Source: Opitutaceae bacterium
GTDB lineage: Bacteria; Verrucomicrobiota; Verrucomicrobiia; Opitutales; Opitutaceae
Reading direction: 5' to 3'
Assembly: GCA_014376585.1 (NCBI GenBank)
Contig: JACMRG010000055.1
Location: forward strand, 1-41,195
DNA length: 41,195 nucleotides
Shown here: positions 14,459 to 39,294 of the stretch, one piece after another
Layout: every line of letters begins with the position of its first letter
Numbering within the stretch: position 1 is the first letter of the stretch
Notes under the pieces: model-generated
Seen by the model: only the letters and a program-made list of their open reading frames with translations
What the model was told of the DNA's origin: nothing
The model's database searches: none
Translations under genes and position numbers: made by a program

Positions 14459-14476
14459 TCCGTTCTCCGAACTGTA

Positions 14477-14620
14477 GGCCCGACCGCCGGTCGGGCCCCG
14501 CCGCAATGGTGCCGGTTTCTCCAAGCCCGATCCAAATATAGCCCGGGTGCTACCCGCCCGTTCCGAGTAGCGCCGGCATCCTGCCGGCTCCGCTTGTTGT
14601 CGCCGTAGGCGCCGGCGAGC
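14477..14620 (+). repeat. Cluster of GTAG-headed REP-like palindromes
   Basis: The 228-base gap holds several short palindromes. At 14477-14497 ggcccgacc-gcc-ggtcgggcc has a perfect 9-base stem, preceded by tgta. At 14544-14556 cgggt-gct-acccg follows a tag. At 14572-14588 gccggca-tcc-tgccggc follows gtagc. A fourth, weaker unit starts at gtaggcgccgg (about 14605). A GTAG tetranucleotide before a hairpin is the mark of REP elements mobilised by RAYT transposases in other phyla. No RAYT gene lies in the window. Confidence 0.65.
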
Positions 14621-14686
14621 GGAATCACGTTAGCGGAAATTGGTCCTCGTTTTGGTTTCGACCGCTTCATCTTTACCCCAACTCCC

Positions 14687-16480
14687 ATGCCCACGCGCCG
14701 CCAATTCCTCCGCACCGCCACCGTCGGCGCCACCGCCGCCACGGTGCTCCCCGCTCTCGCCACGGCTGCCGCTACACCCACCGCCGGCTCCTCGCTTTCC
14801 ACACCCACCACCACATCCGCACCCTCGGTCGACATCACCGCCCGCGAAGCCGTGCTCACCGGCCATCGCAACCTCTTCAACGGCGATACCTGCGTCTATT
14901 TCTACAACCCGGAAAAATGGCAGCCGGAGGGCGGCGCGTTTTCCACCAAGGTCATCCACCGATACGTGGATACGCTCGCCGACAACGGCATCGACACCTT
15001 CGTCATCAACGCCAACGCCTCGCGCGCGTGGTATCCGAGTAAAACCATTCCCACGATCCTCGACGGTTATCGTCGCGGCGACCGCGAGTATTTCCGCGGC
15101 CACGCGATCTGCGCCGGCGCCACCGAGCCCGCCGCCGTCGAGAAGTATATCGATACGATCATGGCATTCATGAACCGCTACCAGGATCTCCTCGATGCTG
15201 GCGTTGATTGGCTCGCCGAGACCGCCGTCGCCTGTCGCCGTCGCGCCGTTTCGCCGTGGGTCAGCGTCCGCATGAACGACATGCACGGCCACCTCAACTA
15301 CGCCGGCAGTTTCTTCAACGCGCCGCTGCTCAAAGATCCGGCGATGCGCCTCCACCACAGCGCCTACTCGCCCACGATGCGCCTACCCGATTACCGCTCG
15401 GGCCTGAACTACGAGAAACCCGAAGTGCGCGCCTTCATATTCGCGCAGATCAAAGAAGTTGTGGAGGACTACGATTTCGCAGGCCTCGAACTCGACTGGT
15501 GGCGCAACGCCCTCTGCTGCGAGCCCAACGCCACACCCGAAACCACGGCGATGATGACCGACTGGTTTCGCCAGATCCGTGCGCTCACCCGGCGCCGCGC
15601 CGAAAAGACCGGCCGCGCCTATCCGTTTGGCTTTCGCATCCCCGGCCGACTCGAAGCCCTCAAAAACATCGGTCTCGATATCGTCACACTCTGTCGCGAG
15701 GGCATCATCGACTTCGTCTGCGTTTCCAATTTCTGGCGCACATCGTGGGACATGCCGCACGACGAACTCCGCCGTCAGCTCGGCGACCGCGTCGCGATCT
15801 ACGGCGGCATCGAAGCGGGCGCGAACCGCCTCGCGACCTTTTCGCCCGCCGCCAACGTCACGCGCGAGGTTCGCCTTATCGGTGGCAGCCGCGAGATGCT
15901 GCACGCCAATGCCGCCGGCAAACTCGTCCTCGGGGCCGACGGCATCGAGTGGTATAATTTCTTCTGCACCGATCAGCCCACCCTGCCGGGAGTGGTCTGT
16001 GACTACACCGCGCTCCGAGACATCCACAAACTCGACCTCCTACGCGGGCAACCGAAGCACTACACGTTCTCCGACAAAGGCGGCACCCTGGAGCAAATCC
16101 CCTTCGACCAACCCACGCCGCTGCCCGTCGTGCTCGAGCGCGGTTGGATGCAATCCTTCCGCCTGCCGATGTGCGCCGAGCCCACGGACCGAAACCTCGA
16201 ACTCGTCGTGCAGGTCGTGCTGAAGAAAACCGACACCTTCGCCCGTCTGCCCGTGGCCGTGAACGGCACCTGGCCGCTCCTCAAGCACACTACCTCAGAA
16301 AAACTTCTTTTCCCCAGCGGTTCATTCACCGACCACAGCGCCGCTCACCTCGGCTACAATTTCCGTTTCCCGATCTCGCTCCTCCGCGACGGCTGGAACG
16401 AAATCACCGTCGAAAACGGTGGCGACCAAACGATCACCGTCGTCGCCCTCGAGCTAGCCGTGCGCTCCGTGGCCTCCTAA
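14687..16480 (+). CDS. Tat-exported glycoside-hydrolase-like TIM-barrel protein
   Basis: A 597-residue protein beginning MPTRRQFLRTATVGATAATV, a twin-arginine signal. The body (about 60-430) looks like a TIM barrel of the glycosyl-hydrolase-like GHL10 type: 'YVDTLADNGIDTFVINANAS', 'AGLELDWWRNALCCEP' (Glu/Asp at a strand end, candidate acid or nucleophile) and 'GIDFVCVSNFW'-like later strands. A C-terminal beta-sandwich (about 460-595) ends 'YNFRFPISLLRDGWNEITVE'. The catalytic residues are not proven, and it may bind rather than cleave sugar. Tat export suggests it folds before export, perhaps with a metal. It is the last intact gene before the accessory island. A degraded copy of its last 45 codons is found at 21591-21737. 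Confidence 0.6.
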   Translation: MPTRRQFLRTATVGATAATVLPALATAAATPTAGSSLSTPTTTSAPSVDITAREAVLTGHRNLFNGDTCVYFYNPEKWQPEGGAFSTKVIHRYVDTLADNGIDTFVINANASRAWYPSKTIPTILDGYRRGDREYFRGHAICAGATEPAAVEKYIDTIMAFMNRYQDLLDAGVDWLAETAVACRRRAVSPWVSVRMNDMHGHLNYAGSFFNAPLLKDPAMRLHHSAYSPTMRLPDYRSGLNYEKPEVRAFIFAQIKEVVEDYDFAGLELDWWRNALCCEPNATPETTAMMTDWFRQIRALTRRRAEKTGRAYPFGFRIPGRLEALKNIGLDIVTLCREGIIDFVCVSNFWRTSWDMPHDELRRQLGDRVAIYGGIEAGANRLATFSPAANVTREVRLIGGSREMLHANAAGKLVLGADGIEWYNFFCTDQPTLPGVVCDYTALRDIHKLDLLRGQPKHYTFSDKGGTLEQIPFDQPTPLPVVLERGWMQSFRLPMCAEPTDRNLELVVQVVLKKTDTFARLPVAVNGTWPLLKHTTSEKLLFPSGSFTDHSAAHLGYNFRFPISLLRDGWNEITVENGGDQTITVVALELAVRSVAS

Positions 16481-16502
16481 AGATCGCCGCGTCTTTGTTG
16501 AT

Positions 16503-16556
16503 GTAGCCGCGCTCGCCGAGCCCGGTCCGAATGTGGGCGGGGTGACCTCACCCCGC
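16503..16556. repeat. REP-like palindromes at the left edge of the island
   Basis: Two elements sit just after the Tat-exported gene. The first begins gtagccgcgctcgccgagc (16503-) with an imperfect stem around a gcc loop. The second is a perfect 9-base stem gcggggtga-cc-tcaccccgc at 16537-16556. No T-run follows either. They resemble the GTAG units at 14477-14620 and mark the boundary between the sugar module and the island. Confidence 0.6.
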
Positions 16557-16638
16557 TTCTCCTCCCCACCCAGTTTTTACCCAGCCCGGCTCGCTCCGCT
16601 CTTGCGGCCCATTCTGCATCTCGCTCTCGTAGCGGCCG

Positions 16639-16782
16639 ATGGCCCAACCCGAGGCATTTTCCCGCGCACTGATCGACCGCGCCCTCGCAGATTGCTGCGG
16701 GAATTTGCTCGAGCCGAAACGGATCCGCTTCGAATTCGAAGCCGCAATCACGCGTGCCGACTGGATTAGACCCCAATTGTGA
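16639..16782 (+). CDS. 47-codon ORF resembling the N-terminus of a type I restriction (HsdR-like) subunit
   Basis: ATG at 16639 opens a 47-codon frame ending TGA at 16780-16782, overlapping the helicase GTG as GTGA. The residues 'SRALIDRALADC' and 'NLLEPKRIRFEFEAA' followed by 'RADW' resemble the first 40-45 residues of HsdR-like nuclease-helicase subunits, where an Ile-Asp helix leads to a 'VRFE' strand and a 'GRADY' site. This recognition is from memory and is weak. It may be a remnant of a replaced restriction gene, a tiny partner peptide coupled to the helicase, or chance. The codons look bacterial, but no strong ribosome site precedes the ATG. Confidence 0.4.
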   Translation: MAQPEAFSRALIDRALADCCGNLLEPKRIRFEFEAAITRADWIRPQL

Positions 16783-19700
16783 AAGTTTCAGCTCCCAGAC
16801 ACCCGCTCGCTCGTTGGTTTGTTGGCCAGTTCAGGTTGTCAGTCCTGAATAAATTCGCGGAGTTTGAAGCCCACGTAGCGACGCTGCCCTCCGAGCTAGA
16901 TCGCGGGAACGCATTTGAAGTGTTCGCGGAGGCTTGGCTTGCCACGCAACGCCTCCCGCAGGCTCGTGAAGTTTGGCCGGGCAGCACGGTGCCGCTTTCG
17001 CTACAAGAAAGTCTCCGGCTGCCCCTAAACGATATGGGAATAGACGGAGTGTTCGAATCGGCTGAAGACGATCCGACCTGCTATCAAGTAAAGTTTCGGA
17101 CTGATCGGCCGCGCCTCAGTTGGGCCGAACTTTCCACCTTTTTTGGACTAGCGGATGCGCCATGCGCACGACTGGTTTTTACCAACTGCGACGAGATTGC
17201 ACGCATAGCCGAGACTCGGCGGGACGTCGTCTTCGTGCGCGGAAGCGACTTGGATCGGCTTACGAAAGACGACTTGGCGGAAATGGACGCGTGGTTGGCT
17301 GGCTCGGTCGTTGCTCGAAAGACAAAATCCCCGCGGCCTCATCAGGAAGCAGCTATCGTCGATATCCTGACGGCCTTTGAACGCCATTCGCGTGCGACGG
17401 CGCTGATGGCCTGCGCCACGGGTAAGACACTAATTTCCCTCTGGGTGGCTGAACGTCTTGAAGCGAAGACTGTGCTCGTGCTGCTGCCGTCGCTCGCCCT
17501 CGTGCGCCAGACGCTGCATGAATGGCTGCACGAAACGAATTGGGCTGATCTTCAATATCGCTGCGTCTGCTCCGATCCCACGGTTCTGCCCGAGGAAGAC
17601 GCTCTTGTGGTCCGTCAGGCTGACCTCGATTTCAAGGTAACAACCGAGATCGCGGCAGTGCGCCGTTTCCTTCAACAACCGTCCACAGGAGTCCGCATCG
17701 TTTTTTCGACTTACCAGTCTAGCGAAGTCGTAGCGACGGCGATGGCGGGAATGGCAGCTTTCGACCTAGGAATCTTTGACGAGGCGCATAAGACGGCTGG
17801 CCTTGAAGGACTGAAGTCCGCGGTCGCGCTGAAGGACGAAAAGATACCGATCCACAAGAGACTCTTCCTCACTGCCACACCGCGCCACTACAACGTTGCC
17901 GCTCGCGAGAAAAGTGGAGACGCGAAAATCGTCTATTCCATGGACGTGCCCGAGGTCTACGGCGTGGTGGCGCACCGCTTGCCGTTCAGTGCCGCCGCCA
18001 GCGCAGGGATCATCACGAACTATCGGGTGGTGATCTCAATCGTGACATCCCAAGAGGTCACCGCTGAAGCAATTCGCCGTGGCGTAGTCTTGGTCAAAGG
18101 CGATACGGTCAAAGCGCGCCAAGTTGCGCACCAGATCGCACTCCAGGCCGCTATCGCTCGCTACGGGGTGCGAAAGATATTCACTTTTCACGGCCGGGTG
18201 GCGGCGGCGGAATCTTTTGTTTCGTCCGGCCCAGAAGGCATCGCGACACACCTTCCGGAGTTTCATTGCGATCACATCAGCGGCGCCATGCCCACGGGTC
18301 AGCGGGAACGTCGGATGAGGGAGTTCGAAAAACAGCCACGCGCAGTGATGTCGAACGCGCGCTGTTTGACCGAAGGAGTCGATGTTCCCGCCGTCGACAT
18401 GGTCGCCTTTCTTAGCCCGCGTCGCAGCCTGGTCGATATCGTCCAGGCGACCGGTCGGGCCATGCGCCATTCTGAGGGCAAAACGTTCGGCTATGTCTTT
18501 GTTCCGCTCTACGTCGAGCAGTCGCGAGGCGAAACCACCTTGGAGGCCGTAAAGCGAAGCAACTACGATGAGATTTGGAACGTTTTGAACCGACTGCAGG
18601 AGCATGACGATTTGCTGGCGCAGATCATCGACGATCTGCGCACACAACGTGGAGCAACCGGCGGGTTCGACGACACCCGTTTCCGCGAACGCGTCGAAGT
18701 GCTCGGTTCGGCCATGTCTTTAGAGGAGCTACGTCGTTCCATCACGGCAGCGTGTCTCGACGCCATCGGCGATCCTTGGATGGAGCGATACGGGCAACTC
18801 AGCGCCTATTTGAAGCAACACGGGAACTGTGACATTCCGGTGCGCTACTCTGCTAACAAACCGCTGGCAACATGGGTCGTGGCTCAGCGCTATGAGCGAA
18901 GGCTTGGAAATCTCTCGAAGGAGCGGATCGAGCTCTTGGATCGGCTCGGTTTCACTTGGGACCCTTACAGCGCCGAGTGGCGCGGGAACTATCTCGCCCT
19001 GCTCGCCTTCAAGGAGCTTCACGGACACTGCCGCGTGCCGACCAATTCCACGGAGCACAAGGGGCTCCGCGCTTGGATCACGGCCCAACGCAGCAAACGC
19101 GGCACACTGGACGAAGAGCGCGTCCGCCTGCTCGATAAATTGGGATTCGATTGGCATTCGGTTCTCGCGACATGGGATGAGCGGTTTAAAGAGCTATGTT
19201 TGTTCAAGGAAAAATTCGGGCATGTTCGCGTGCCCGTAACATGGAAGGAAAATAAAACCCTCGCCGGCTGGGTTGTCCGTCAACGCGTTTGGAAGAGGGC
19301 CGGTAAAATCAGCGTTGATCATCGACAGAAACTCGAAGGTCTGGGCTTCGAATGGGATCTGTTGGCCGATCAAGCAAAGCAGTGGACGCAAAACATCGAG
19401 AAGCTTCGGGCGTTTAAGGAGGCAAATGGCCACACGATGATTTCCATCAAACAGGGCCACGATCCGGCGCTCAGTCGTTGGCTCGCCAACCAACGTCGTC
19501 TAAGACGAGCGGGTAAGCTCTCGGTCGATCAAATCGCCGTGCTTGATGGACTCGCCGTCGCCGGCGATGCCGGGGAAGAATTCCGCGCCCTTCAATGGGA
19601 AAACAAATTTCGGCAGTTAGAAAAATTGCGCCAATCTACAGGGTGGTGCGAGCCATCCCGCGGGGCGACCGACCGCGAGGCAAAGGCGCTGCGTTCTTGG

Positions 19701-21590
19701 GCTAACGATCAACGAATGCTCAAACGGCGAGGCCGCCTGGATGTTGCTCGCGTTGCGCGGCTCGACACCCTGGGTTTCAGGTGGGAACCGCGAGGCAACC
19801 CCGGTGGATATTCGCCTGCTCACGACCACCCGACCAATCCGCCCGCAAAATCATGGGATGAGATGTATTCCGAATTGACCGATTTCTTCCGGAAGAGCGG
19901 GCATTGTGACGTCCCTGATTCGTGGGTCATAGCCCCTGATCTTCCGCGCTGGGTGAATCTACAACGGACCCTCAAGAGCACCGGCAGGCTGAATTCCGAT
20001 CATGAAAAGAAGCTCAGCAACCTCGGATTTTCATGGGCGATTTTCGATGCTCAATGGGAGCAGAAACTCGTGGCACTAAAGGCCAAGCTGAGTGCCATTC
20101 GGCGCGGGCAGGCGGCCGCTCTTGAGCCGCTCCTCGCGCGCTGGAGCCAGACACAACGGCAGCAAAACCTCCGTGGCACTCTCCCGCCCGAAAGAAAAGC
20201 CCGGCTCGACGCGATCGGTTTCGAATGGAGTCCCTACGCGGAACGGTGGGACCAGATGCTGGCGGCGTTTCGCCATTTTCGTGAGGTGAATGGTCACTGC
20301 CGCGTGCCCACAAAGTGGGCAGAGAATCCCCAACTCGCCAGATGGGTCGGAGTCCAACGGGCCCAAAAATCATCAGGTCGCCTCAGGCCGGCGCGCGAGA
20401 AAGCGCTCGATGCACTCGGATTTTCATGGGCGGTCAGCCGTCTTGGGGGGAGTCCCAAGCGCGATGGTTGGTCCGCGATGCTGAGTAAGCTCGCGGCATT
20501 TCACGCCGAGCACGGCCATGCACGGGTCCCTCAAAATTTTATCGCCGACAGAAAACTGGGTTGGTGGGTTGCCACTCAGCGCAGGAACCGGCGCAACGGG
20601 AGCTTAACCCCGGACCAGATTCGCGCGCTGGACAGCCTTGGTTTCATTTGGAGCTTCGCCGAAGCTTCCACGTCCCGTTCACACCTAACCACGGCCCCCT
20701 TTGTAGAGAGATGGAATACAATGCTCGAGGCCCTTCGTAAGTTTCGGGCCGAACACGGTCACTGTCGTGTCCCTACTGCTTGGTCTAACAATCGACCGCT
20801 CGCCAATTGGGTTTCGGTTCAACGGCGGCGTATGAAACTGAAAGAACTTTCACCCGAACGCATTATGACCCTGAACGAACTTGGATTCGACTGGATCGTA
20901 ACCCGTGAAGATTCGGTTGCCGGGGCAAAATTAATAGGCCGCACCACTCCTGCCAGCGCAACGAATCGATGGCCGGAGATGTTGGCAGCGCTATTGGAAT
21001 ACAAGAAAGCGCATGGCGACTGCCGAGTCCCACAAAAGTGGAAGCATAACAAAGCCCTTGCCTCTTGGGTTGCGGACCAAAGAGCAGCCTACCAGAGCGG
21101 ACGGTTGAACACAGAACACCAATTCGTTCTCGAGAATTTAGGGTTCGACTGGGACCCGATCGCCACGCGATGGGAGACAATGTTTGAGCAGTTGGTGGAA
21201 TACAAAAAGCGCTTTGGAGACACAAACGTTCACAGCAATGACCGTGAGTATTTTAAGCTTGGGAACTGGGTGAAGATGCAGCGCCGCGACAAGAAGATTG
21301 GTCGCCCGATCAGCCGGGTCCGTCTCGTCCGTCTTGAAGAACTTGGATTCACATGGAGGCTCGTTGAGCCGACCGCGTGGGAGAAAATGTTCAGCCTGCT
21401 AACCGACTTCAAATCTCGCCACGGCCACTGCAATGTGCCCCAGCGTTTTCCCGAGAACATCAGATTTGGGCGGTGGGTGAATACCCAGCGTATGAAGTTC
21501 AAGAACGGGAAGCTCGGGATGGAAAAGCAGCGGCGCCTAGAAGTATTGGGATTCTCGTGGAACACAAAAGCTTCGCCGCAGATCCTCTGA
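16779..21590 (+). CDS. Giant nuclease-helicase with 13 Helicase-Associated (HA) repeats
   Basis: A 1603-residue cytosolic protein. Residues about 10-170 form a restriction-endonuclease-like domain with Asp89 in 'MGIDGVFE' and Gln103-Val-Lys105 in 'CYQVKFR', a PD-(D/E)xK-type site. About 185-640 is a complete SF2 helicase: Walker A 'CATGKT' (Lys216), DEAH at 334-337, 'TATP' from 365 and motif VI QATGRAMR at 556-563. Residues about 667-1600 are 13 HA repeats (PF03457 type), each reading W...L..F....GHCRVP....LA.WV..QR......L....LD.LGF.W. GTG start at 16779 puts the usual 'KFAEFEAHVATLP' lead-in at the N-terminus. Base use is more A/T-rich than in the flanking genes, which suggests transfer. A DNA-translocating restriction or anti-mobile-element role is inferred. 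No methyltransferase is nearby, so it may not need one. Confidence 0.85.
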   Translation: MKVSAPRHPLARWFVGQFRLSVLNKFAEFEAHVATLPSELDRGNAFEVFAEAWLATQRLPQAREVWPGSTVPLSLQESLRLPLNDMGIDGVFESAEDDPTCYQVKFRTDRPRLSWAELSTFFGLADAPCARLVFTNCDEIARIAETRRDVVFVRGSDLDRLTKDDLAEMDAWLAGSVVARKTKSPRPHQEAAIVDILTAFERHSRATALMACATGKTLISLWVAERLEAKTVLVLLPSLALVRQTLHEWLHETNWADLQYRCVCSDPTVLPEEDALVVRQADLDFKVTTEIAAVRRFLQQPSTGVRIVFSTYQSSEVVATAMAGMAAFDLGIFDEAHKTAGLEGLKSAVALKDEKIPIHKRLFLTATPRHYNVAAREKSGDAKIVYSMDVPEVYGVVAHRLPFSAAASAGIITNYRVVISIVTSQEVTAEAIRRGVVLVKGDTVKARQVAHQIALQAAIARYGVRKIFTFHGRVAAAESFVSSGPEGIATHLPEFHCDHISGAMPTGQRERRMREFEKQPRAVMSNARCLTEGVDVPAVDMVAFLSPRRSLVDIVQATGRAMRHSEGKTFGYVFVPLYVEQSRGETTLEAVKRSNYDEIWNVLNRLQEHDDLLAQIIDDLRTQRGATGGFDDTRFRERVEVLGSAMSLEELRRSITAACLDAIGDPWMERYGQLSAYLKQHGNCDIPVRYSANKPLATWVVAQRYERRLGNLSKERIELLDRLGFTWDPYSAEWRGNYLALLAFKELHGHCRVPTNSTEHKGLRAWITAQRSKRGTLDEERVRLLDKLGFDWHSVLATWDERFKELCLFKEKFGHVRVPVTWKENKTLAGWVVRQRVWKRAGKISVDHRQKLEGLGFEWDLLADQAKQWTQNIEKLRAFKEANGHTMISIKQGHDPALSRWLANQRRLRRAGKLSVDQIAVLDGLAVAGDAGEEFRALQWENKFRQLEKLRQSTGWCEPSRGATDREAKALRSWANDQRMLKRRGRLDVARVARLDTLGFRWEPRGNPGGYSPAHDHPTNPPAKSWDEMYSELTDFFRKSGHCDVPDSWVIAPDLPRWVNLQRTLKSTGRLNSDHEKKLSNLGFSWAIFDAQWEQKLVALKAKLSAIRRGQAAALEPLLARWSQTQRQQNLRGTLPPERKARLDAIGFEWSPYAERWDQMLAAFRHFREVNGHCRVPTKWAENPQLARWVGVQRAQKSSGRLRPAREKALDALGFSWAVSRLGGSPKRDGWSAMLSKLAAFHAEHGHARVPQNFIADRKLGWWVATQRRNRRNGSLTPDQIRALDSLGFIWSFAEASTSRSHLTTAPFVERWNTMLEALRKFRAEHGHCRVPTAWSNNRPLANWVSVQRRRMKLKELSPERIMTLNELGFDWIVTREDSVAGAKLIGRTTPASATNRWPEMLAALLEYKKAHGDCRVPQKWKHNKALASWVADQRAAYQSGRLNTEHQFVLENLGFDWDPIATRWETMFEQLVEYKKRFGDTNVHSNDREYFKLGNWVKMQRRDKKIGRPISRVRLVRLEELGFTWRLVEPTAWEKMFSLLTDFKSRHGHCNVPQRFPENIRFGRWVNTQRMKFKNGKLGMEKQRRLEVLGFSWNTKASPQIL
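18777..21560 (+). repeat. Coding array of 13 HA repeats
   Basis: Thirteen units of about 62-85 residues follow each other without a break, each opening with a Trp and closing near 'LGF.W'. Units 1-3, 6, 8-11 and 13 keep most of the consensus. Units 4, 5, 7 and 12 have lost part of the 'GHCRVP' strand, unit 7 completely. The DNA sequences of units differ widely, so the expansion is old. Linkers of 10-20 residues follow units 5, 8, 9 and 10. Confidence 0.85.
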
Positions 21591-21737
21591 CGCTGGTGCT
21601 ACGACTACCGCTTCCCCGTCGCTCTCCTGCGCGGCTGTTCGAACCAATTAGCTTTCGAAAACGGCGGCGACCGAACGATTGCTCTCATTGCCCTCCAACC
21701 CGTGGTATGGTCGGTCGCCGTGTCGACACGGGCTTGA
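21591..21737 (+). pseudogene. Decayed 3' end of a second copy of the Tat-exported glycosidase-like gene
   Basis: Directly after the helicase stop, 49 codons to a TGA at 21735-21737 encode 'YDYRFPVALLRGCSNQLAFE' followed by 'NGGDRTIALIAL'. The C-terminus of the protein at 14687-16480 is 'YNFRFPISLLRDGWNEITVE' followed by 'NGGDQTITVVAL'. Roughly half of the aligned positions are identical by eye. No start codon or upstream part of such a gene is present. The piece is therefore the tail of a diverged paralogue, most of which was lost when the helicase cassette came in, or an old duplication made by the insertion. It is in the same frame as the helicase, separated only by the helicase TGA. Confidence 0.75.
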
Positions 21738-24140: not shown

Positions 24141-24365
24141 TCAGCCGTTGGTATCAAACCAGACGCCGGTATTCCCCGGCGCGAAGAAGAAGGCGGAGAA
24201 GACACTGAAAATCGAAATCGTCCAGGAAGCCTTCTCCTGCCTCCACGGCCACAAAGTCACCCGTCCTACGTAGCGTCCGGCCGGCAAATCGCGGTCCGCG
24301 TCATCAGCCGATTCGACGGGGAAGCGACCAAGGTCCGTTCGCGGCGGCGGCGGGCCGCGCGCCAT
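24141..24365 (-). CDS. Small hypothetical ORF coupled to the upstream sulfatase
   Basis: On the minus strand the sulfatase stop and an ATG share one base (TGATG at 24367-24363). The frame then runs 74 codons to a TGA at 24141. The product is basic and Pro-rich at the start, followed by 'DLPAGRYVGRVTLWPW' and a hydrophobic stretch 'WTISIFSVFSAFFFAPG' (about residues 48-64) that could be a membrane segment, ending 'TGVWFDTNG'. Codon third positions stay GC-rich, which favours a real or recently real gene. I do not recognise a family. It may be a small membrane protein, or the tail of a degraded gene. Confidence 0.4.
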   Translation of the reverse strand: MARGPPPPRTDLGRFPVESADDADRDLPAGRYVGRVTLWPWRQEKASWTISIFSVFSAFFFAPGNTGVWFDTNG

Positions 24366-25714
24366 CACGGTGTGGAGTCGGAAATTTCCCGGCGCCACAC
24401 GGTGAGCGCCATGCGGAGGCGGTCGCGGGTCGCGCGGTGCGCGGGATCGGGGGCGAGGTTCACGAGTTGGCCGGGGTCGCGGTCGAGGTCGTAGAGTTCT
24501 TCGGCCGGCGCGGTCGGCGCGGCGAAGAGCGCCTGCGCGGGGGTGAGTTTGCCGGCGGCGGCGAGTTCTTGGAAGAGCGCCCAGACGGGGTATTGTTTTT
24601 CCTTGTAGGCGTTGGCCGACATGAGCGGTTTTTGCGGCGTGAGATTTTGAATGTAGCGGTAGCGCGGGTCGCGCACGGTGCGGAGGACGAGTTCGGTTTC
24701 GTCGCAGCGGTCGCGCGCGCCGAACACGTAGTCGCGCGGTGCGGCGGCGTGGGCGCCGAGGAAGGCGCGGCCCTGCATCTTTTCCGGGACGGGCTCGCCG
24801 GCGAGGGCGAGCATTGTGGGCGCGAGGTCGATGGCGGCGAGGAGGCGGTCGGCCACGGTGCCGGGCTTGAAGCCGGCGGGCGCGGGGAAGTTTTTCGGCC
24901 AGCGGATCAGGAGCGGGACGTGCAGGCCCTCTTCGTAGCAGAATTGTTTGTCGCGGATGTGGCAGCGGCCGTTGTCGCCGAAGAAGACGACAATGGTGTC
25001 GTCGGCCAGGCCGTCGGCGGTGAGTTGCGCGAGGACGGCGCCGACCTTGCGGTCGAGCTCGGCGACGGAGTCGAGGTAGGCGGCCCAATCGGCGCGCACG
25101 ACGGGGTGGTCGGGGTAGAACGGCGGGAGGGTGACGCGGGCGGGGTCGGCGAGCCGGGGGGCTTTGAATTCGCGGTGGGGTTCGCGGAAATTGATCTGCG
25201 CGAAGAAAGGCCGGCCGGGCGCGAGGTCGGCCCAGCGGGCGGTGTCGAAGGCGGGGGCGTCGTAGCGGAAATTCCAATCGGTCTTGCCGGGGATCTTGAT
25301 GGCGAGGTCGGCGGGGAACGCGGTGAGGTTGGCGGTGCGGTAGCCGGCATCATGGAAGCGGTGAGAGAGCAGGCGCACGCCGGCGGGAAGGGGGCGTTTG
25401 TCGGCTTCGGCGGTGCGGTGCTGCTGCGCGCCGAGCGGGTGGGCATACATGCCGGTCATGAACGCGGAGCGCGAAGCGGAGCAGACGGGGGCGGTGGTGT
25501 AGAAGCGGGTGTAGCGCACGCCCTCGGCGGCGAGGCGGTCGAGGTGGGGCGTGCGCGCGTCGGGATCGCCGTAGCAGCCGAGTTCGACGCCGAGATCGTC
25601 GCCGATGAGCCAGAGGATATTGGGGCGCGGCGCGGGCGCAGCGGAGGCGAAGACGGGGAGAAGGAGGGTGAGGAGGAAGGCGCGGGCGGGGGCGAGGGTG
25701 GGTAGGGGCATCAT
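24365..25714 (-). CDS. Formylglycine-type sulfatase with CSASR motif (heparan N-sulfatase-like)
   Basis: A 449-residue family S1 sulfatase with a signal peptide (cleavage near 'VFASAAPA'). 'NILWLIGDDLG' supplies metal-binding Asp39 and Asp40. Cys78 in 'CSASR' is the residue turned into formylglycine; the middle Pro of the usual CxPxR is Ala here, a change I recall in heparan-N-sulfatase-like and related clades. 'GDNGRCHIRDKQ' gives the second Asp/Asn metal pair. The start overlaps the upstream sulfatase stop as ATGA (25711-25714), so they are coupled; a second ATG one codon later is equally possible. Likely periplasmic desulfation of a glycan. The position of the sulfate removed cannot be told. 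Confidence 0.85.
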   Translation of the reverse strand: MMPLPTLAPARAFLLTLLLPVFASAAPAPRPNILWLIGDDLGVELGCYGDPDARTPHLDRLAAEGVRYTRFYTTAPVCSASRSAFMTGMYAHPLGAQQHRTAEADKRPLPAGVRLLSHRFHDAGYRTANLTAFPADLAIKIPGKTDWNFRYDAPAFDTARWADLAPGRPFFAQINFREPHREFKAPRLADPARVTLPPFYPDHPVVRADWAAYLDSVAELDRKVGAVLAQLTADGLADDTIVVFFGDNGRCHIRDKQFCYEEGLHVPLLIRWPKNFPAPAGFKPGTVADRLLAAIDLAPTMLALAGEPVPEKMQGRAFLGAHAAAPRDYVFGARDRCDETELVLRTVRDPRYRYIQNLTPQKPLMSANAYKEKQYPVWALFQELAAAGKLTPAQALFAAPTAPAEELYDLDRDPGQLVNLAPDPAHRATRDRLRMALTVWRREISDSTP

Positions 25715-27231
25715 GGTCGGGTGCGGGGGGATTGTTGGAGGAGGGCGAGTTTCGCGGCCATCGCGGCGGCGCGGGCGGGTTCGGCGGGGGCGAGATTTTT
25801 GGTCTCACCCGCATCGGTGGCGAGGTCGTAGAGCTGGGGCGCGGCGAGGTTGGCGGTCTCGGTGTTGGTATTTTTTTGGACCGCGACGCCGGGGGCGGGC
25901 GCGATGAATTTCCAATGGCCTTCGCGGAGCGCGAGTTTGCCGGCGTGCTCGATCACGTAGGCGCGGCCGGCGGGGGAATCGCCGAGGAGGGCGGCGCGCG
26001 CGTCGGGGCTGTCGGGGGCGTCGTTCTGGGCGAGGGTTTGGCCGGCGAGGGCGGCGCAGGTGGCGAGCAGATCGACGTGGCTGACGAGGGCGTCGGACAC
26101 GCCGGGCTGCACGCGTGCGGGCCAGCGGACGAGGAAGGGCACGCGGGTGCCGGCTTCGAAGCGGCTGTATTTGCCGCCGCGAAAGTTTGCGGCGGGGCGG
26201 TGGTCGCCGAGGCGGGTGACGGCGCCGTCCTGGTAGCCGTCGTCGATCACGGGGCCGTTGTCGCTGGAGAGGATCACGAGGGTGTCGCGCGCGAGGCCGT
26301 GGCGCTCAAGGGCGCCGAGGATTTCGCCGACCTCCCAGTCGAGCTGCACGATGGCGTCGCCGCGCGGGCCCATCGTGGTTTTGCCGACGAAGCGCGGGTG
26401 CGGGACGCGGGGGACGTGGATGTCGTGCGGGGCGAAGTAGAGGAAGAACGGGCGGGCCTTCTCGCGGCCGATGAAGGCGACGGCGCGGCCGGTGAAGGTG
26501 TCGGCCATGTCCTCATCGACCCATTGGGCGGCGCGGCCGCCGGTGGAGTAGCCGATGCGGCCGATACCGTTTACGACGGCCATGTTGTGGCCGTGGGACC
26601 AGTCGAGCTTGAGTTTCGCGCGGTCGGAGACGCCGGTGGGCTCGCCGGGAAACGGTTTATCGTAATCCACGCGGAGGGGGTCTTGCGGATCGAGGCCGAC
26701 GACGCGTTGGTTCTCCACGTAAACGCAGGGCACGCGGTCGGCGGTGGCGGCCATGATGAAGCTGTAGTCGAAGCCGACTTCGCGCGGACCGGGGGCGAGG
26801 GGTCGGTTCCAATCGAGTGGGACGCCGGGCGCGCCGAGGCCGAGGTGCCATTTACCGACGGCGGCGGTGATGTAGCCGGCGCGTTTGAGGACGGAGGGGA
26901 GGGTGGCGCGGGCGGGGTCGAGGACGAGGGCGGCGTCGCCGGGGAGGATGCCGGTGTTGGCGCGGCGCCAGGGGTATTCGCCGGAAAGGAGGGCGAAGCG
27001 CGAGGGCGTGCAGGTGCCGGAGGTGGCGTAGCCGGAGGTGAAACGCAGGCCTTCGCGGGCGAGGCGGTCCATATTCGGCGTGGCGACGCGGGTGGCGCCG
27101 TAGCAGCCGAGGTCGCCGTAGCCGAGGTCGTCGGCGTAGATGATGACGATATTGCGCGGGCGCGCGGGCTCGGCGGCGGGGAGGGTGGTGGTGAGGGCGA
27201 GGGCGGCGAGGAGGGCGGGGAGTTTCATCAT
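25711..27231 (-). CDS. Arylsulfatase A-like sulfatase (CTPSR)
   Basis: A 506-residue family S1 sulfatase with a signal peptide ending near 'LPAAEPA'. 'IIYADDLGYGDLGCYG' carries the first metal Asp pair, and Cys74 in 'TCTPSRFALLSGEYP' is a canonical formylglycine site. 'GKWHLG' (Lys, His) and 'SSDNGPVIDDGY' complete the active site. 'DWEVGEILGALERHGLARDT' is the common helix before the DNG motif. Length fits arylsulfatase A-like enzymes. It lies 47 bases downstream of a TonB-dependent receptor gene and is coupled to the next sulfatase, so all three are likely co-transcribed. Substrate is not known; the receptor pairing suggests a sulfated oligosaccharide. Confidence 0.88.
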   Translation of the reverse strand: MMKLPALLAALALTTTLPAAEPARPRNIVIIYADDLGYGDLGCYGATRVATPNMDRLAREGLRFTSGYATSGTCTPSRFALLSGEYPWRRANTGILPGDAALVLDPARATLPSVLKRAGYITAAVGKWHLGLGAPGVPLDWNRPLAPGPREVGFDYSFIMAATADRVPCVYVENQRVVGLDPQDPLRVDYDKPFPGEPTGVSDRAKLKLDWSHGHNMAVVNGIGRIGYSTGGRAAQWVDEDMADTFTGRAVAFIGREKARPFFLYFAPHDIHVPRVPHPRFVGKTTMGPRGDAIVQLDWEVGEILGALERHGLARDTLVILSSDNGPVIDDGYQDGAVTRLGDHRPAANFRGGKYSRFEAGTRVPFLVRWPARVQPGVSDALVSHVDLLATCAALAGQTLAQNDAPDSPDARAALLGDSPAGRAYVIEHAGKLALREGHWKFIAPAPGVAVQKNTNTETANLAAPQLYDLATDAGETKNLAPAEPARAAAMAAKLALLQQSPRTRP

Positions 27232-27278
27232 GGGGCGAGGGGTCGGGCGGTCGGGGCTGGGGGCGGCTGCATTGCCAT

Positions 27279-30200
27279 TTAGAAGGAGAAGGTGCTGGCG
27301 AGGGTCCAGCGGGTTTCGTTGGGGATGCGGATGACGGCGATGGTGCCGTCGGGGTTGGCGGTGACAGGGATGTCTTCGCCGTTACCCCAGGCGTTGCGGA
27401 CGTTGAGTTGCAGGCGCCAATCGACGGTTTTGAAAATCTTGCGGCGGTAGCCGACCCAGAAATCGCCGGCGAGTTCGGCGGGGCCGTAGTAGGGGTGTGC
27501 GAGGTCGGGAAACTGGGACTGCATCACCGGATCGGTGTCGCGGATCTGCGCGGTCGAGGGGTAGAGCGGGTTCGTGGCGACGATTTTTTGTTTGAGGCGT
27601 TCGCCGGTGAGGAACGGATTGCCGATGGCGATTTTATCCTGCCAGCGGACGGCGGTGCCGACGGTCATTTTGTTGAGGATGAAATTTTCGAAGCCCTTCA
27701 GGTCGTAGCTGGTGACGAGGTTGGCGCGCCATTTGCGTTGTTCGGGGGAGAGGGCGCCGTCGCGGGCGACGGTAGCGGAGAGGGGCGTGGTGATGTCGGA
27801 CGCGAAGCGTTGGGCGGTGGTCTGGCGCTCGGGGAGCGCGGGCGCCTGGTCAACGCCGAGGAGATTGAGTTTTACGAGGTTCGCGTAAACGGCGTCGGCG
27901 ACTTCTTTGGTGAGGCGGGCGGAGCCGTTGAGGACGGTCTCTTGTTTCGCGACGTTGAAGGAGACGCGCCAGCGGCGGGTGACGTTGCCGACGAGTTCGG
28001 CCTCGAAGCCGCGGGCGTCGAGGTCGCTGGTATCGGTGAGGCCGGCGATGCCGTCGGAAAGGAGGGTGGTGCCGGCGGGGTTGAAGCGGAGGTTTTTGAT
28101 CGTGTTGGCGGGCTCGGGGAGGAGCTTGAAGAGGGCGGAATAAATTTGGGCGTAAGAGGTGTAGCCGGCGGTGGTGACGCCGGGGATGGTGGCGAATTCG
28201 ATGCCCTGCGTCTGGGCGGCGAGGTAGCGGTTGATGAGAAAATTGGGGAAGCCGTAAGTGGCCGCGGTGGCGCCCTGGGCGTTGTTGGAGGAGTCGGTCT
28301 GGACGGTGTGAAACCAGTTCAAACGGAGGGAGACGCGGCGCTCGAGCATTTCGAGGAGGAGGCCGTATTCCCCGGTGGTGCCGGCGGGGGCGGGGATGAT
28401 CGCGCCTTTAAGATTGGTGCGGATGTTCTGGGGGTTGAAGTTGCCGGAGGCGTTGTAGTAGCCGCCGATTTCGAGGCCGAGGGGGAGGTTGGAGACGAGG
28501 CGGCGGGGCAGGCGGCCGACGAGGCTCCAGGTGAATTTGTGGGCGCTCTCGTCGAGATCGGGTGCGGAGCGGAGGCGGGTGCCGGAGAGGTCGAGCGCGC
28601 CGTCGGGGAGGCGGACGTTGCCCTCGCTGGAGAAGGTTTGGAGGGAGTCCCAGCGCCAGCCGACGACGCTGACGAGGGTGTCTTTGAAGAAATCGCTTTT
28701 GATGCTGACGGACTGGGAGTCGATGAGTTGGCGGCTCGTGGAACCACCGTTGAGGAAGCGGCGGACGAAAAGATTTTCGGTGACGAGGCGTTTGTTGGTG
28801 AAGTCGAAGAAGGTGACGTTGTGAACGTCGCCATCCTTGGGAATCCGGCCGTTGAAGACATCGGTGATGCGAACGTCGTTGGCGGAGGTGGCGGAGAGGA
28901 CGGAGGGGCCGACGTATTGGACGACGACGGGGCTGCGCCGGAAACCGTCGTTGATGGCGGTCTGGAAGACGTCGGTGTTGAGGTTGCGGGTGCCGCTCTC
29001 CCAGCCGACCTGGTAGTTGCGGTTAAACGTGTCGATACGCTGGCGGTTGAAGAGGCCGGTGACGATGTGGTTGCCGAGGGGGAGGCCGAGGAGCTTCACG
29101 CCGCGGTCTTCGAGATCGAGTTTGTAGAAGGCGGTGGCGCGGGAGGCCTCGCGGAGACGTCGGGTGATGCGGTCCTGGACGCCGAGCTGCTGGACGAAGG
29201 GGCGGCCGAGGTTGGGGTTGGGCTGGTCGTTGCCGAGGTATTGGGAGACGTCGATGTAGATGTCGCTCTGGCCGTTGCCCGCGCCGTTTTGGCCGAAGGA
29301 GAAGGGGAGGACGCGGCTGGAGGCGGTGCGCTGTTGATCGAAGGCGATCTCGACGCCGCCGCGGCCGGCGAAGAGTTCCTGGGAGAGGGCGGCGTTGCCG
29401 ACCTGGAAGGTTTGTTCGACGCGGTTGGAGCCGCCGGAGATGAGCCGCTCGCGGTAGTCGAAGATCCGACGGTTCTGAATCGTGGGGGCGACGAAGCCGG
29501 AGTAGGTGGCGTTGATGTTGACGGTGGAGATGGCGTCGATGGCGGGGCGGAGGTTGGGGTTTTGGGCGTAGCGGATGCGGCCCATGATGCCGGAGAGCCC
29601 GGCGAGGGCGGGGTTGGTGGTGTTGCGGTAGCCGGGGGTGATCTGGCCGGGCGTGTCGTAGATCAGCGGGACCTGGATGAAGTAGGGCACGGCGTAGTAG
29701 CCGCCGAAATTTTGAGGGATGGCGGAAGAGCTGATGCGGTTGTCCACGGTGACTTTGGGTGCCCAAATATAGCCGGGCGCGCCGACTTTCACGCGGGGAT
29801 CGACGGTGATGCCAGGGATGTCGTCGATCGCGGGATCGGGCGGGGCGAAGAAAATGCCGAAGGCATTAACGGGCGGGATGACGTTGACCGGGGTGGACTG
29901 GCTGTCGCCGATCTCGCCGGAGGCGCGGAGGGCGGTGCGGCCGAGGATGCCGGATTTTTTGCCGTCGCGGAGGACGAATTCGAGCGCGCCGTAGAGGCGG
30001 CGTTTGCGGTCGAAGGCGGGCTTTTGGAGGTAGTTGTTCTCCTCGTTGACGGTGGCGACACGCAGGGCGAGGCGGTCGCGGATAAGGACGCGGTTGAGGT
30101 CGAGCGTGGCCCGATAGGAGCCCTCGGAGCCGTAGCGGGTGCCGAGCTCGGTGCGGTCGCGGCGGAGCAGCGGGCGGACGACGGAGGCCTCGATGATGCC

Positions 30201-30803
30201 GGCGGGGTTGCCGATGCCGAAGAGGAGGGCGTTGGGCCCGCGGCTGATGGTGACGCGCGCGGTGTTGTAGGAATCGAAGGGGATATCGGTGGTGAAATAC
30301 TCGCGCGCGAGGGTGGCGGCGCCGATGCCGCGGACGCGCTGGTTGCCGGAGGGATTCTCGCGGCTCTCGGATTGGTCGGGACGGGTGTTGGCCTGCTCGC
30401 CGCCGGCGAAATTGCCGGAGACGCCACCGACTTCGGTGCTCGTCGTGAAGGAGAGGAGTTCGCCGATGTTGGTGGAGGCGGTGTCGGCGAGGAATTCGGG
30501 CGTGATGATGCTGATGGAGGCGCCGATGTCGCGGAGGGCGGTGTTGAGGCGGGTGCCGGAGAGGGTGCTGTTGGCGGAGTAGCCGACGGTGTCGTTGTCC
30601 TGCACGACGAAGGGGTCGAGGCGGACGGCGGTTTCGGCGGACGGGGGCGGGGCGGCGGGCGGGAGCGGAGGCACGGATTTGGCGGGCGCGGGGGTGGGGG
30701 CGGGGGCGGGATTGGCCGCGGCGGTCTGCGCGCGGAGGCAGGCCAGCGGCAGGGCGAGAGCGAGGGCAAGCAACAGGCCGCGGGGGTGAATGGCAGGGTG
30801 CAT
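27279..30803 (-). CDS. TonB-dependent receptor (large, no STN domain)
   Basis: A 1174-residue outer-membrane receptor with a signal peptide (MHPAIHPRGLLLALALALPL). A Pro/Ala-rich stretch (about 28-55) leads to 'VRLDPFVVQDNDTVGYSANS', the TonB-box-like lead-in typical of Opitutaceae receptors. The plug spans about 75-225 with 'RDIGASISIITPEFLADTAS' and 'RVTISRGPNALLFGIGNPAG'. The rest is a 22-strand-type barrel ending in 'RWTLASTFSF', with the C-terminal Phe needed for outer-membrane assembly. No N-terminal STN signalling domain, unlike the receptor at 34482-37688, so it probably imports without signalling. It lies 5' of two coupled sulfatases. A sulfated glycan fragment is the likely cargo. 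Confidence 0.9.
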   Translation of the reverse strand: MHPAIHPRGLLLALALALPLACLRAQTAAANPAPAPTPAPAKSVPPLPPAAPPPSAETAVRLDPFVVQDNDTVGYSANSTLSGTRLNTALRDIGASISIITPEFLADTASTNIGELLSFTTSTEVGGVSGNFAGGEQANTRPDQSESRENPSGNQRVRGIGAATLAREYFTTDIPFDSYNTARVTISRGPNALLFGIGNPAGIIEASVVRPLLRRDRTELGTRYGSEGSYRATLDLNRVLIRDRLALRVATVNEENNYLQKPAFDRKRRLYGALEFVLRDGKKSGILGRTALRASGEIGDSQSTPVNVIPPVNAFGIFFAPPDPAIDDIPGITVDPRVKVGAPGYIWAPKVTVDNRISSSAIPQNFGGYYAVPYFIQVPLIYDTPGQITPGYRNTTNPALAGLSGIMGRIRYAQNPNLRPAIDAISTVNINATYSGFVAPTIQNRRIFDYRERLISGGSNRVEQTFQVGNAALSQELFAGRGGVEIAFDQQRTASSRVLPFSFGQNGAGNGQSDIYIDVSQYLGNDQPNPNLGRPFVQQLGVQDRITRRLREASRATAFYKLDLEDRGVKLLGLPLGNHIVTGLFNRQRIDTFNRNYQVGWESGTRNLNTDVFQTAINDGFRRSPVVVQYVGPSVLSATSANDVRITDVFNGRIPKDGDVHNVTFFDFTNKRLVTENLFVRRFLNGGSTSRQLIDSQSVSIKSDFFKDTLVSVVGWRWDSLQTFSSEGNVRLPDGALDLSGTRLRSAPDLDESAHKFTWSLVGRLPRRLVSNLPLGLEIGGYYNASGNFNPQNIRTNLKGAIIPAPAGTTGEYGLLLEMLERRVSLRLNWFHTVQTDSSNNAQGATAATYGFPNFLINRYLAAQTQGIEFATIPGVTTAGYTSYAQIYSALFKLLPEPANTIKNLRFNPAGTTLLSDGIAGLTDTSDLDARGFEAELVGNVTRRWRVSFNVAKQETVLNGSARLTKEVADAVYANLVKLNLLGVDQAPALPERQTTAQRFASDITTPLSATVARDGALSPEQRKWRANLVTSYDLKGFENFILNKMTVGTAVRWQDKIAIGNPFLTGERLKQKIVATNPLYPSTAQIRDTDPVMQSQFPDLAHPYYGPAELAGDFWVGYRRKIFKTVDWRLQLNVRNAWGNGEDIPVTANPDGTIAVIRIPNETRWTLASTFSF

Positions 30804-30908
30804 GGGTGGGGTTGAGCCGGATCCGCCGACGGGATGACGGGGGATATCCTGACGGACTCAGGCCAGCGGGCTTATTGGGGGGCAATCCAAGGGAGAGACG
30901 TGGCCGGG

Positions 30909-33059: not shown

Positions 33060-33064
33060 GGGCG

Positions 33065-34417: not shown

Positions 34418-34481
34418 CGGGGCGGGGGGATTTTAGGATTTCGCCGCGGAGGCGGGACCAGGAACTCGGAGGCGGAGGGGA

Positions 34482-37688: not shown

Positions 37689-37734
37689 CTCCCCTGAAGT
37701 CGGGCGAGCGGGGTGAATCTATTACGCGAAATTT

Positions 37735-38721: not shown

Positions 38722-39254
38722 GGGCGCGCCCTCCCGAGACCGCGGGCCGCGAGGTAGGCGCCGCAGCGTTTGACACCTTTCAGGACCTGCACCTGCACGG
38801 TCAGCTCGGAAATGCCCAGCAGGGCGGCGATTTCCTTTTGCGACAGCCGGCGGAGTTTCCGCAGCACGACGATCTCGCGGCAGCGCGGGGGCAGGGTCTC
38901 GATCGCGGCGGCCAGCAGCGCGAGCTCCTCGCGCACGCAGGCGGCCTCGGCGGAATCGGCGGCCGTGTCGGCCACGGGCAGGGTGGTGAGGTCGGCCACG
39001 CCCACGAGTGGCGAGGTGCGCTCACGGCGCGCGAGGTCCGTCGCGACGCAGCGCGCGATGTGGAAAAGAAAACCCCGCGCCGAGCGCACGGTCTGCGCGG
39101 TGCCGATACGCCAGAGGCGCAGATACGATTCCTGCACCACGTCGTCCACATCGCGCACGCCGGGAAACGTGCCGCGCAGGTAGGAGCGGAGGATGGGTTC
39201 GCAGGGCTGGACCTCTTTGGCGAACCAGCGGGCTTGGTCGGCGGGGGTGGGCAT
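38718..39254 (-). CDS. ECF RNA polymerase sigma factor (FecI-like)
   Basis: A 178-residue ECF sigma factor. I place the start at ATG 39254 (protein MPTPADQARWF...), because the frame continues upstream into the sulfatase gene without family similarity and 178 residues is normal. Sigma region 2 includes 'FPGVRDVDDVVQESYLRLWR'; region 4 has 'LPPRCREIVVLRKLRRLSQK' and 'EIAALLGISELTVQVQVLKG', the -35-binding helix-turn-helix. It is probably held at the membrane by the FecR protein encoded next. Its target promoter is not identifiable here. Gene order, sigma then anti-sigma then receptor, is the FecI-FecR-FecA layout. Confidence 0.9.
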   Translation of the reverse strand: MPTPADQARWFAKEVQPCEPILRSYLRGTFPGVRDVDDVVQESYLRLWRIGTAQTVRSARGFLFHIARCVATDLARRERTSPLVGVADLTTLPVADTAADSAEAACVREELALLAAAIETLPPRCREIVVLRKLRRLSQKEIAALLGISELTVQVQVLKGVKRCGAYLAARGLGRARP

Positions 39255-39294
39255 CGACAGGGCGGTGATAGCGGACGGTCCGGCGAAGGCGCGC

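Follow-up and report, generated by a model that had tools for sequence, protein, structure and literature searches.

Thirteen Helicase-Associated repeats on a type ISP-like nuclease–motor chassis: a probable mobile, stand-alone defence enzyme

What is the function of a protein that joins a nuclease site to a helicase motor and then gives over most of its length to a single kind of small repeat? The window analysed here (41,195 nucleotides of contig JACMRG010000055.1 from an Opitutaceae bacterium) raises this question through one open reading frame, which starts at a GTG and runs without interruption for 1603 residues. The original prediction gave this one protein a nuclease motif, a full SF2 helicase and an array of 13 Helicase-Associated (HA) repeats, and all three were confirmed. 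The catalytic positions that it named are correct, since the window protein and four homologues aligned with it all have D89, Q103, K105, G215-K216-T217, DEAH 334–337 and Q556/G559/R560/R563. One homologue, L031, is 66% identical over the same length of 1603 residues, begins at the identical position and also carries 13 HA repeats. The features are as follows, with the evidence in brackets.

16779..21590, forward strand: whole gene, nuclease–helicase–HA array (1603 residues, stop included; start and length common to L031)
16779..17312, forward strand: Mrr-like nuclease domain, residues 1–178, with E47, D89 and Q103-x-K105 (LlaBIII alignment)
17313..18698, forward strand: SF2 helicase/translocase, residues 179–640, with K216, DEAH 334–337 and motif VI 556–563 (Pfam, LlaBIII/LlaGI match, alignment)
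18774..18953, forward strand: HA repeat 1 (PF03457)
18969..19148, forward strand: HA repeat 2 (PF03457)
19170..19349, forward strand: HA repeat 3 (PF03457)
19374..19553, forward strand: HA repeat 4 (PF03457)
19590..19778, forward strand: HA repeat 5 (PF03457)
19848..20030, forward strand: HA repeat 6 (PF03457)
20046..20222, forward strand: HA repeat 7, the lowest-scoring, 30.9 bits (PF03457)
20238..20423, forward strand: HA repeat 8 (PF03457)
20463..20645, forward strand: HA repeat 9 (PF03457)
20706..20888, forward strand: HA repeat 10 (PF03457)
20964..21146, forward strand: HA repeat 11 (PF03457)
21165..21350, forward strand: HA repeat 12 (PF03457)
21372..21554, forward strand: HA repeat 13 (PF03457)
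14468..21731, no strand assigned: segment unaligned with the same-genus genome G509 (comparison with G509)

The HA profile PF03457 matches 13 stretches of the protein (whole-protein E 5.5e-209), all of which exceed the curated cut-off of 28.4 bits and lie beside the SF2 helicase. Together with their linkers the repeats occupy residues 666–1592, or 58% of the protein, as the prediction of an array filling more than half of it had required. The motor scores over the Pfam cut-offs for ResIII, DEAD and Helicase_C. Even with hits admitted up to E 1, Pfam did not recognise the nuclease of the window protein, and that of its clade-mate L056 also went unnamed by Pfam; the nuclease was assigned from the LlaBIII alignment, which begins at residue 39, and from other relatives that match Mrr_cat_2. 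The residues of the proposed PD-(D/E)xK-type site are present, and the type is refined to the Mrr-type D...QxK variant. Of the 35 rows in a selected set, all but L065 (34 rows) retain E47, D89, Q103 and K105. Rough dN/dS values, given that dS is saturated, are low in the nuclease (~0.06) and in the array (~0.08) alike.

The best matches of the window protein among solved structures are the type ISP restriction enzymes LlaBIII (E 3.6e-59) and LlaGI (E 1.4e-52), to which its nuclease–helicase half is, as judged from sequence, homologous. Both kinds of protein place an Mrr-family nuclease and an SF2 helicase-like ATPase in the same order on a single polypeptide; where the type ISP enzymes continue with coupler, methyltransferase and recognition domains, the window protein has its 13 HA repeats. 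In type ISP and similar ATP-dependent restriction enzymes the methyltransferase protects the host and the recognition domain reads the target; type ISP enzymes cleave after two translocating enzymes have converged head to head. The window protein does not match the ISP coupler (PF22240) at E<=1, whereas the comparison protein L063 does so at E 4.2e-53, and Pfam found no N6 adenine methyltransferase in the window protein, whose residues from 666 to 1592 are HA repeats and linkers. Nor did Pfam match a methyltransferase among the 22 window ORFs scanned, in agreement with the claim that none lies nearby. In the helicase tree the 14 ISP rows, all with the NPPY motif, form one clade (100) and the window protein lies outside it, in its own clade of five members, which carry 5, 5, 11, 13 and 13 HA repeats.

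A second clade (100) has the same nuclease–motor chassis followed by 4–12 copies of a 71-residue ‘integrase repeat’ (PF14882). Its members L057, L058, L059 and L189–L192 share with the window protein an Mrr-like nuclease, an SF2 motor and a tandem array of variable length, but differ from it in the kind of repeat and in their separate position in the tree; no methyltransferase was matched in L057, L058, L059 and L159, each scanned whole. INT_rpt matches exceed the Pfam cut-off in L057, L058 and L159 and are absent from L160, L162 and L059, whose repeats were assigned by a purpose-built profile instead; L059 also matches NUMOD1 and the I-TevI DNA-binding domain below the Pfam cut-offs, and these matches were not relied on. 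Treating HA and integrase repeats as one family was rejected at the sensitivity of hhalign (probability 0.2). At the level of sequence, a known nuclease–motor chassis recurs with two unrelated kinds of repeat chain of very different lengths, and a C-terminal slot that takes different tandem arrays is as expected of a reader module.

HA-repeat helicases from Pseudomonas and actinobacterial plasmids share the order of SF2 motor then HA repeats with the window protein but have fewer repeats than its 13 (7 in L069, 10 in L068), and in five of them the nuclease is missing or its QxK residues are lost. Two of these five, the Rhodococcus plasmid relatives L065 and L188, have lost the QxK residues ahead of a motor and 5 HA repeats; the other three, L052, L054 and L070 from Pseudomonas plasmids, have no nuclease domain and carry 6 HA repeats after the motor. 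The expected conservation of the nuclease site holds for the window's clade, in which all five members retain E47, D89, Q103 and K105, and fails in these five relatives, where the HA–motor pair appears to have been kept without cutting; this would argue against the wider group acting purely as nucleases. AU tests, on groups set by architecture and run after the tree had been seen, reject a single clade of the six nuclease–HA proteins (p 1.9e-53), of all HA-bearing rows (p 0.0017) and of all nuclease-bearing rows (p 2.4e-6). The family is patchy: among 273 genomes sampled from the order, full-length nuclease–HA forms were found in three.

The gene appears to have been acquired, as indicated by a GC3 of 0.64 against 0.81–0.87 in seven window neighbours and by an alternative content of the site in G509, a genome of the same genus. 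There, the same two conserved genes enclose 1.08 kb with an AbiEi (DUF6088) gene, and the genome has no match to a nuclease–helicase query. G509 is the only informative comparison, because the stretches also fetched from G160 and G520 showed no copy of the conserved gene that lies upstream. The flanks of the window gene are metabolic genes. The expectation that homologues sit near defence or mobile genes is borne out in part: in the PF14882 clade, L058 adjoins PglZ and BrxL genes (BREX), L059 lies near an integrase gene and tRNA-Met, and L191 lies near an integrase gene, two tRNA genes and a BglII-like nuclease gene, while L086 has a phage capsid gene on the same contig and further relatives are on plasmids. 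Of the 13 loci with repeat arrays, 5 showed no neighbour of a defence or mobile kind, a raw count over the few neighbours scanned and uncorrected for any background rate.

We consider it somewhat likelier than the reverse that the protein is a methyltransferase-free, single-chain relative of the type ISP enzymes, in which the HA array would read the target and the translocating nuclease would defend the cell. Because the repeats stand where related enzymes carry the parts for marking self and reading the target, the protein is probably a defence enzyme, mobile and working alone, that reads DNA in an unfamiliar way. Cutting, translocation, array-based DNA reading and cell defence are the activities that we infer. 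In the proposed mechanism, the 13 C-terminal repeats would take over from the methyltransferase and recognition domain by binding the target DNA. This binding would license DNA pumping by the SF2 motor, and once the motor ran into an obstacle or a second motor, the Mrr-type nuclease would nick or cut. As there is no methylation to mark self, the host would be spared by the rarity or absence in its own genome of the target, whether this is a composite sequence of great length or some trait of foreign DNA. The stand-alone restriction-like factor of the original prediction is the best-supported reading, given the ISP homology, the site kept in 5/5 clade members and the lack of a methyltransferase match among the 22 window ORFs scanned. 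If the chains do read DNA, they would represent a way of restricting DNA that needs no self-marking, together with a modular DNA reader of a new kind on a translocating nuclease, and the HA repeats would gain a directly testable role.

The likeliest of the alternatives, and still an unlikely one, is a helicase for maintenance or transfer of mobile elements, with the nuclease processing DNA in transfer or replication. A precedent is the DEAD-box helicase TtrA, which PMC8743542 describes as needed for SLP2 conjugation. HA arrays match in 346 of 72,556 plasmid records, including large Pseudomonas plasmids, and in 1 of 50,697 phage records, so that their function may be plasmid-borne housekeeping; the Pseudomonas gene sits amid many small plasmid genes, genes for an AAA ATPase and for ParB lie close to it in L054, and the two Rhodococcus plasmid relatives have lost the nuclease site. 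However, the window copy and L031 are on chromosomal-looking contigs with the site intact, and no transfer or replication gene was found among their scanned neighbours. Host DNA repair or fork processing in the manner of RadD is far less probable than this: the similarity of the motor to the RadD (NF053632, 39.3 bits) and Hef (31 bits) profiles is weak and far below the curated cut-offs (720 and 610), and the patchy distribution, the lack of a match in G509 and the foreign codon composition of the gene all argue against it.

Second among the alternatives, and also unlikely, is a modification-dependent (type IV-like) enzyme, in which the array would read a modified base or sequence, the motor translocate and the nuclease shred. 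The absence of a methyltransferase from the ORFs scanned and the union of nuclease, SF2 motor and C-terminal reader in a single chain are in keeping with this, as is the motor's top NCBIfam hit, to a profile for restriction enzymes of DNA phosphorothioation (Dnd) systems, although at only 57.8 bits against a cut-off of 600. SauUSI is not known to depend on a methyltransferase of its own, but its nuclease is of the PLD type, whereas that of the window protein, in which Pfam matched no PLD nuclease, is of the Mrr-like D-QxK type aligned to LlaBIII. According to PMC7913695, a single enzyme holds the nuclease, ATPase and TRD of SauUSI, and ATP-dependent type IV enzymes related to it likewise unite nuclease, SF2 motor and reader. 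Against this reading, Pfam matched no known modified-base reader domain in the array, and a length of 5–13 repeats would suit a reader of longer sequences better than one of single bases. A little more doubtful again is the idea that the Mrr–SF2 chassis is a general platform for interchangeable tandem arrays, of HA units or of 71-residue integrase-type units, in which each unit reads a fixed DNA step, with length and order setting the target, so that a TALE-like reader drives a translocating nuclease; such a target could reach a length at which the host genome lacks it, making a protecting methyltransferase unneeded.

In the preferred reading of the array as a target reader, the properties of the repeats themselves are of interest. 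HA repeats are predicted to bind nucleic acid, and no described function turned up for them among the papers that the literature searches listed. The window array is strongly basic (net charge +59, against -4 for residues 1–660), although in L055 the front half equals the array in basicity and the arrays of L086 and L053 are weakly basic. The suggestion that the array wraps or measures DNA is without direct support: the full-array model (984 residues, 3 rows; mean pLDDT 71, pTM 0.24) consists of separate three-helix units joined by low-confidence linkers, with breaks that include residues ~1005–1023, 1219–1228, 1293–1307 and 1375–1396, and has no confident overall path. A model of three repeats has good local structure (pLDDT 85), but how the repeats are arranged in it is uncertain (pTM 0.44), and neither model supports a rigid superhelical wrap. 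Foldseek found no fold relative of the three-repeat model in the PDB with E<=0.001; a match at the sequence level links the HA region to 2kta (‘Putative helicase’), at E 1.3e-4.

The repeats of the window protein and L031 are in register, with a mean identity of 0.60 on the diagonal and 0.35 off it, which 0 of 100000 permutations reach. A repeat specificity code was sought and rejected, as column 38 is not significant and ~1.03 such columns are expected by chance over the 29 variable columns. This column, which is the second x of W-V-x-x-Q-R and falls within predicted helix 2, is the most variable between repeats and also agrees best between corresponding repeats of the window protein and L031 (9/13), which makes it a lead only.

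The window carries at 16779-21590 (plus strand) an open reading frame of 1603 amino acid codons with no interruption. Pfam identifies ResIII, DEAD and Helicase_C matches in its product, followed by 13 Helicase-Associated (HA) repeats (PF03457; E 5.5e-209), the only HA matches in the genome (91.5% complete); with linkers of 5 to 25 residues these fill residues 666-1592. The profile thus bears out the original prediction of 13 repeats over more than half of the protein, and the catalytic and helicase positions then assigned were also right: D89, Q103, K105, K216, the DEAH box (334-337), Q556, G559, R560 and R563 do not vary across the window protein and four aligned homologues.

A homologue, L031 from an Opitutaceae MAG, has an identical start, 1603 residues and 13 repeats at 66% overall identity (79% over the first 620 residues); chance therefore accounts for neither the reading frame nor the number of repeats. 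When the two arrays are compared repeat by repeat, the best partner lies at the same position for 12 of the 13 rows and for all 13 columns, and identity averages 0.60 at the same position versus 0.35 elsewhere, a value that none of 100000 permutations reached. Likeness among the repeats inside the window protein is low (35% on average, 52% at most), and the array is therefore an old one that did not expand recently. Between the two proteins the array has the highest dN (0.368; nuclease 0.195, helicase 0.119) and, by this measure, evolves approximately three times faster than the motor. The dN/dS values (0.06 for the nuclease, 0.08 for the array) are rough, since dS is above 3 or, as for the helicase, could not be computed.

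HA repeats are predicted to bind nucleic acid. The window array has a net charge of +59, versus -4 for residues 1-660; five other HA arrays are also net positive, weakly so in the viral-contig locus L086 (+8) and the plasmid locus L053 (+9), and L055 is equally basic in its front half and its array (+34 and +34). AlphaFold2 models the HA repeats of the window protein as three-helix units with the W-V-x-x-Q-R motif on helix 2, the linkers being of low confidence and the global path of the array not confident. A Foldseek search with the modelled repeats found no significant fold relative.

The front half of the protein is related to type ISP restriction enzymes. Its best solved-structure match is LlaBIII (E 3.6e-59), aligned over the nuclease and both motor halves, followed by LlaGI (1.4e-52), aligned over the two motor halves. 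Among PADLOC models, that of a type IIG restriction enzyme-methyltransferase fits best; its best stretch pairs residues 36-430 with only positions 16-431 of its 1646. Pfam names no nuclease in the window protein or in its relative L056, but it names Mrr_cat_2 in L053, L057, L058, L059, L063, L188 and the fragment L061. The same domain was found in all nine proteins of a further scan, in seven with scores above the cut-off of 22 (in three of these by less than two bits); the scores of L095 and L089 are below it. Across a chosen set of 35 aligned rows (6 HA, 7 integrase-repeat, 7 with other C-termini, 14 type ISP, and L065), E47, D89, Q103 and K105 are kept in all except L065.

The protein differs from type ISP enzymes at the C-terminal side of the motor, where those enzymes carry a coupler, a methyltransferase and a DNA-recognition domain (PMC4666363, PMC7049714), and where the window protein has its HA array. 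The Pfam families for coupler and methyltransferase gave no match in the window protein, whilst both were matched in the comparison protein L063. In seven further proteins the Mrr-SF2 front is followed by tandem repeats of approximately 71 residues ending in DWLG or a variant; a profile built from units of L189-L192 counts 5 in L057, 4 in L058, 4 in L059, 5 in L189, 6 in L190, 12 in L191 and 7 in L192. Pfam's integrase-repeat family (INT_rpt) exceeds its cut-off in L057, L058 and L159 (the same gene as L189), and no similarity was detectable between HA and INT_rpt units. The twelve units of L191 are spaced at exactly 71 residues, with 75% average likeness over the eleven compared; arrays such as those of L191 and L190 therefore look recently expanded, unlike HA arrays. 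That unrelated, length-variable tandem arrays occupy the place of the methyltransferase and target-recognition domain (TRD) is the strongest clue to a reader in this C-terminal slot.

A 54-row helicase tree (quick search, SH-aLRT support) groups the 14 type ISP rows (support 100), all of which have an NPPY motif, the seven integrase-repeat rows (100), and five nuclease-HA rows including the window protein (98, or 96 after leaving out four long or odd rows). L111, intended as a fifteenth ISP row, was left out because its row had been built on a wrong ORF. Inner branches lack support in 18 of 51 cases (14 of 47 in the reduced tree). On this tree the window protein stands beside the type ISP enzymes as their sibling; it is not a broken ISP enzyme. 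The sixth nuclease-HA row, L053, falls outside the window clade and groups with L065, and an AU test rejects a single clade of all six; on at least two occasions, therefore, the pairing of nuclease and HA array arose or survived.

Beyond the domain assignments, we infer each step of the following mechanism. Binding of target DNA by the array would license the ATPase, the motor would then pump DNA, and a collision would set off the nuclease; self could be spared without methylation if the target is absent from the host. The proposed licensing resembles that of LlaBIII, in which the ATPase is partly licensed by target binding of the methyltransferase and TRD (PMC7049714). A modification-dependent variant is retained as a rival reading. 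So is a role in plasmid maintenance, which gains from relatives that combine motor and HA array without a working nuclease. In the Rhodococcus plasmid proteins L065 and L188 a nuclease-like region remains, with the aspartate kept and the QxK residues and E47 equivalent lost, whereas their relative L053 keeps the catalytic residues; the nuclease thus seems to decay while motor and array stay. Three Pseudomonas plasmid relatives are without any nuclease. Such proteins would suit plasmid maintenance or a non-cleaving blocker. Maintenance without cutting is, however, at odds with the intact nuclease site in 5 of 5 members of the window clade, so that the conservation on which the original prediction leaned holds within this clade but not across the wider group. 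For the window protein we continue to favour target-licensed cleavage.

The prediction also required that at least some homologues lie near defence or mobile genes. Seven of the 13 array-bearing nuclease loci surveyed (6 HA, 7 integrase-repeat) have a recognisable gene of this kind on the surrounding stretch, or a plasmid location:

Defence and mobile neighbours of array-bearing nuclease loci
L053 (HA): linear plasmid, NACHT protein
L055 (HA): PIN domain gene
L086 (HA): phage capsid gene
L058 (integrase-repeat): PglZ and BrxL
L059 (integrase-repeat): integrase adjoining tRNA-Met, approximately 1.2 kb from the gene
L191 (integrase-repeat): BglII-like nuclease and two tRNAs, all within 0.5-0.7 kb; integrase 5.7 kb off
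L189 (integrase-repeat): ParE-like toxin one gene away

At five further loci none was seen, with few neighbours scanned: L031 (three), L056 (two), L190 (two), L057 (none) and L192 (none). The window locus enters the tally solely through an AbiEi gene at the same site in G509, a genome of the same genus. Since genes of the PIN and ParE-like kinds are widespread, the pattern is support for a defence or mobile reading, not proof. Two of these loci have further features:

L191, 5641-10236, minus strand: twelve-repeat (71-aa) nuclease-helicase, 433 bases from the BglII-like restriction nuclease and flanked by tRNA-Phe and tRNA-Thr on one side, by the phage integrase on the other; the locus looks like an integrated island
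L058, 1-14654: the nuclease-helicase-repeat gene sits among BREX-type genes (PglZ, BrxL) and genes for a helicase of the Schlafen group and for a protein containing a TmtA-like stretch; it is possibly an addition to a BREX locus

The family is patchily distributed. Within the order, 82 of 273 sampled genomes match the nuclease-helicase query (E<=0.001), mostly over part of the helicase alone, and three have a full-length nuclease-HA protein: the window's genome, G391 (L055, 11 HA) and G502 (L056, 5 HA). Other long matches are integrase-repeat types (G429, G507, G479) or, in G354, G116 and G080 (L038-L040), show no HA within the partial stretches examined. Across the phylum, 30 of 387 sampled genomes match at E<=1e-20, and among these 30 loci only the window's own has HA repeats, the others being integrase-repeat types (4), NPPY/F/W-motif types, or stretches ending too early to class. 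One of 72 viral-contig loci is a nuclease-helicase-HA protein (L086, 5 HA), and the plasmid search gave L053 (8 HA; Rhodococcus qingshengii). Matches to HA arrays were found in 346 of 72,556 plasmid records and in 1 of 50,697 phage records. Full-text searches of a library from which most subscription papers and all preprints are absent brought up no description of this nuclease-motor-HA architecture; one may exist beyond it.

HA matches occur in 10 of 288 sampled phylum genomes, the window's included. Eight (G039, G110, G124, G139, G145, G165, G276, G285) have two-HA frames of 261-282 residues, too small for a helicase and possibly the simplest HA proteins for testing; G119 has an 860-residue HA protein without a helicase match. 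The window's genome also holds contig-end pieces of a second Mrr-SF2 chassis gene (L061 and L062; contigs C195, 3090-4199, and C41, 1-935). One piece has a stop codon counted in it, and in the other an apparent change of frame falls in the first kilobase; this second gene looks broken.

At the window locus, GC3 of the HA gene is 0.64 versus 0.81-0.87 in seven other window genes. In G509 (96% complete) two conserved flanking genes, whose proteins are 86% and 89% identical, enclose 1.08 kb, which carries the DUF6088/AbiEi gene, versus 7.26 kb in the window. Compared with the L031 locus, the HA gene alone of 11 window genes matches. The HA gene itself aside, no transfer, integrase or restriction gene was found among 22 window ORFs scanned. 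The surroundings include:

14687-16477: next to the HA gene on its upstream side, within the same 7.26 kb segment, and missing from the corresponding G509 site; 597-residue product whose start looks twin-arginine-like by eye and which neither Pfam nor NCBIfam matches
24365-40866: four sulfatases, two TonB-dependent receptor plugs, an alpha-alpha toroid protein, FecR and an ECF sigma factor
422-838, left edge: PIN-domain protein (PF01850)

The upstream gene has host-like GC3, and so it and the HA gene need not have arrived together. The 24365-40866 region looks like a locus for sulfated-polysaccharide use, and the PIN-domain protein is perhaps a VapC-like toxin.
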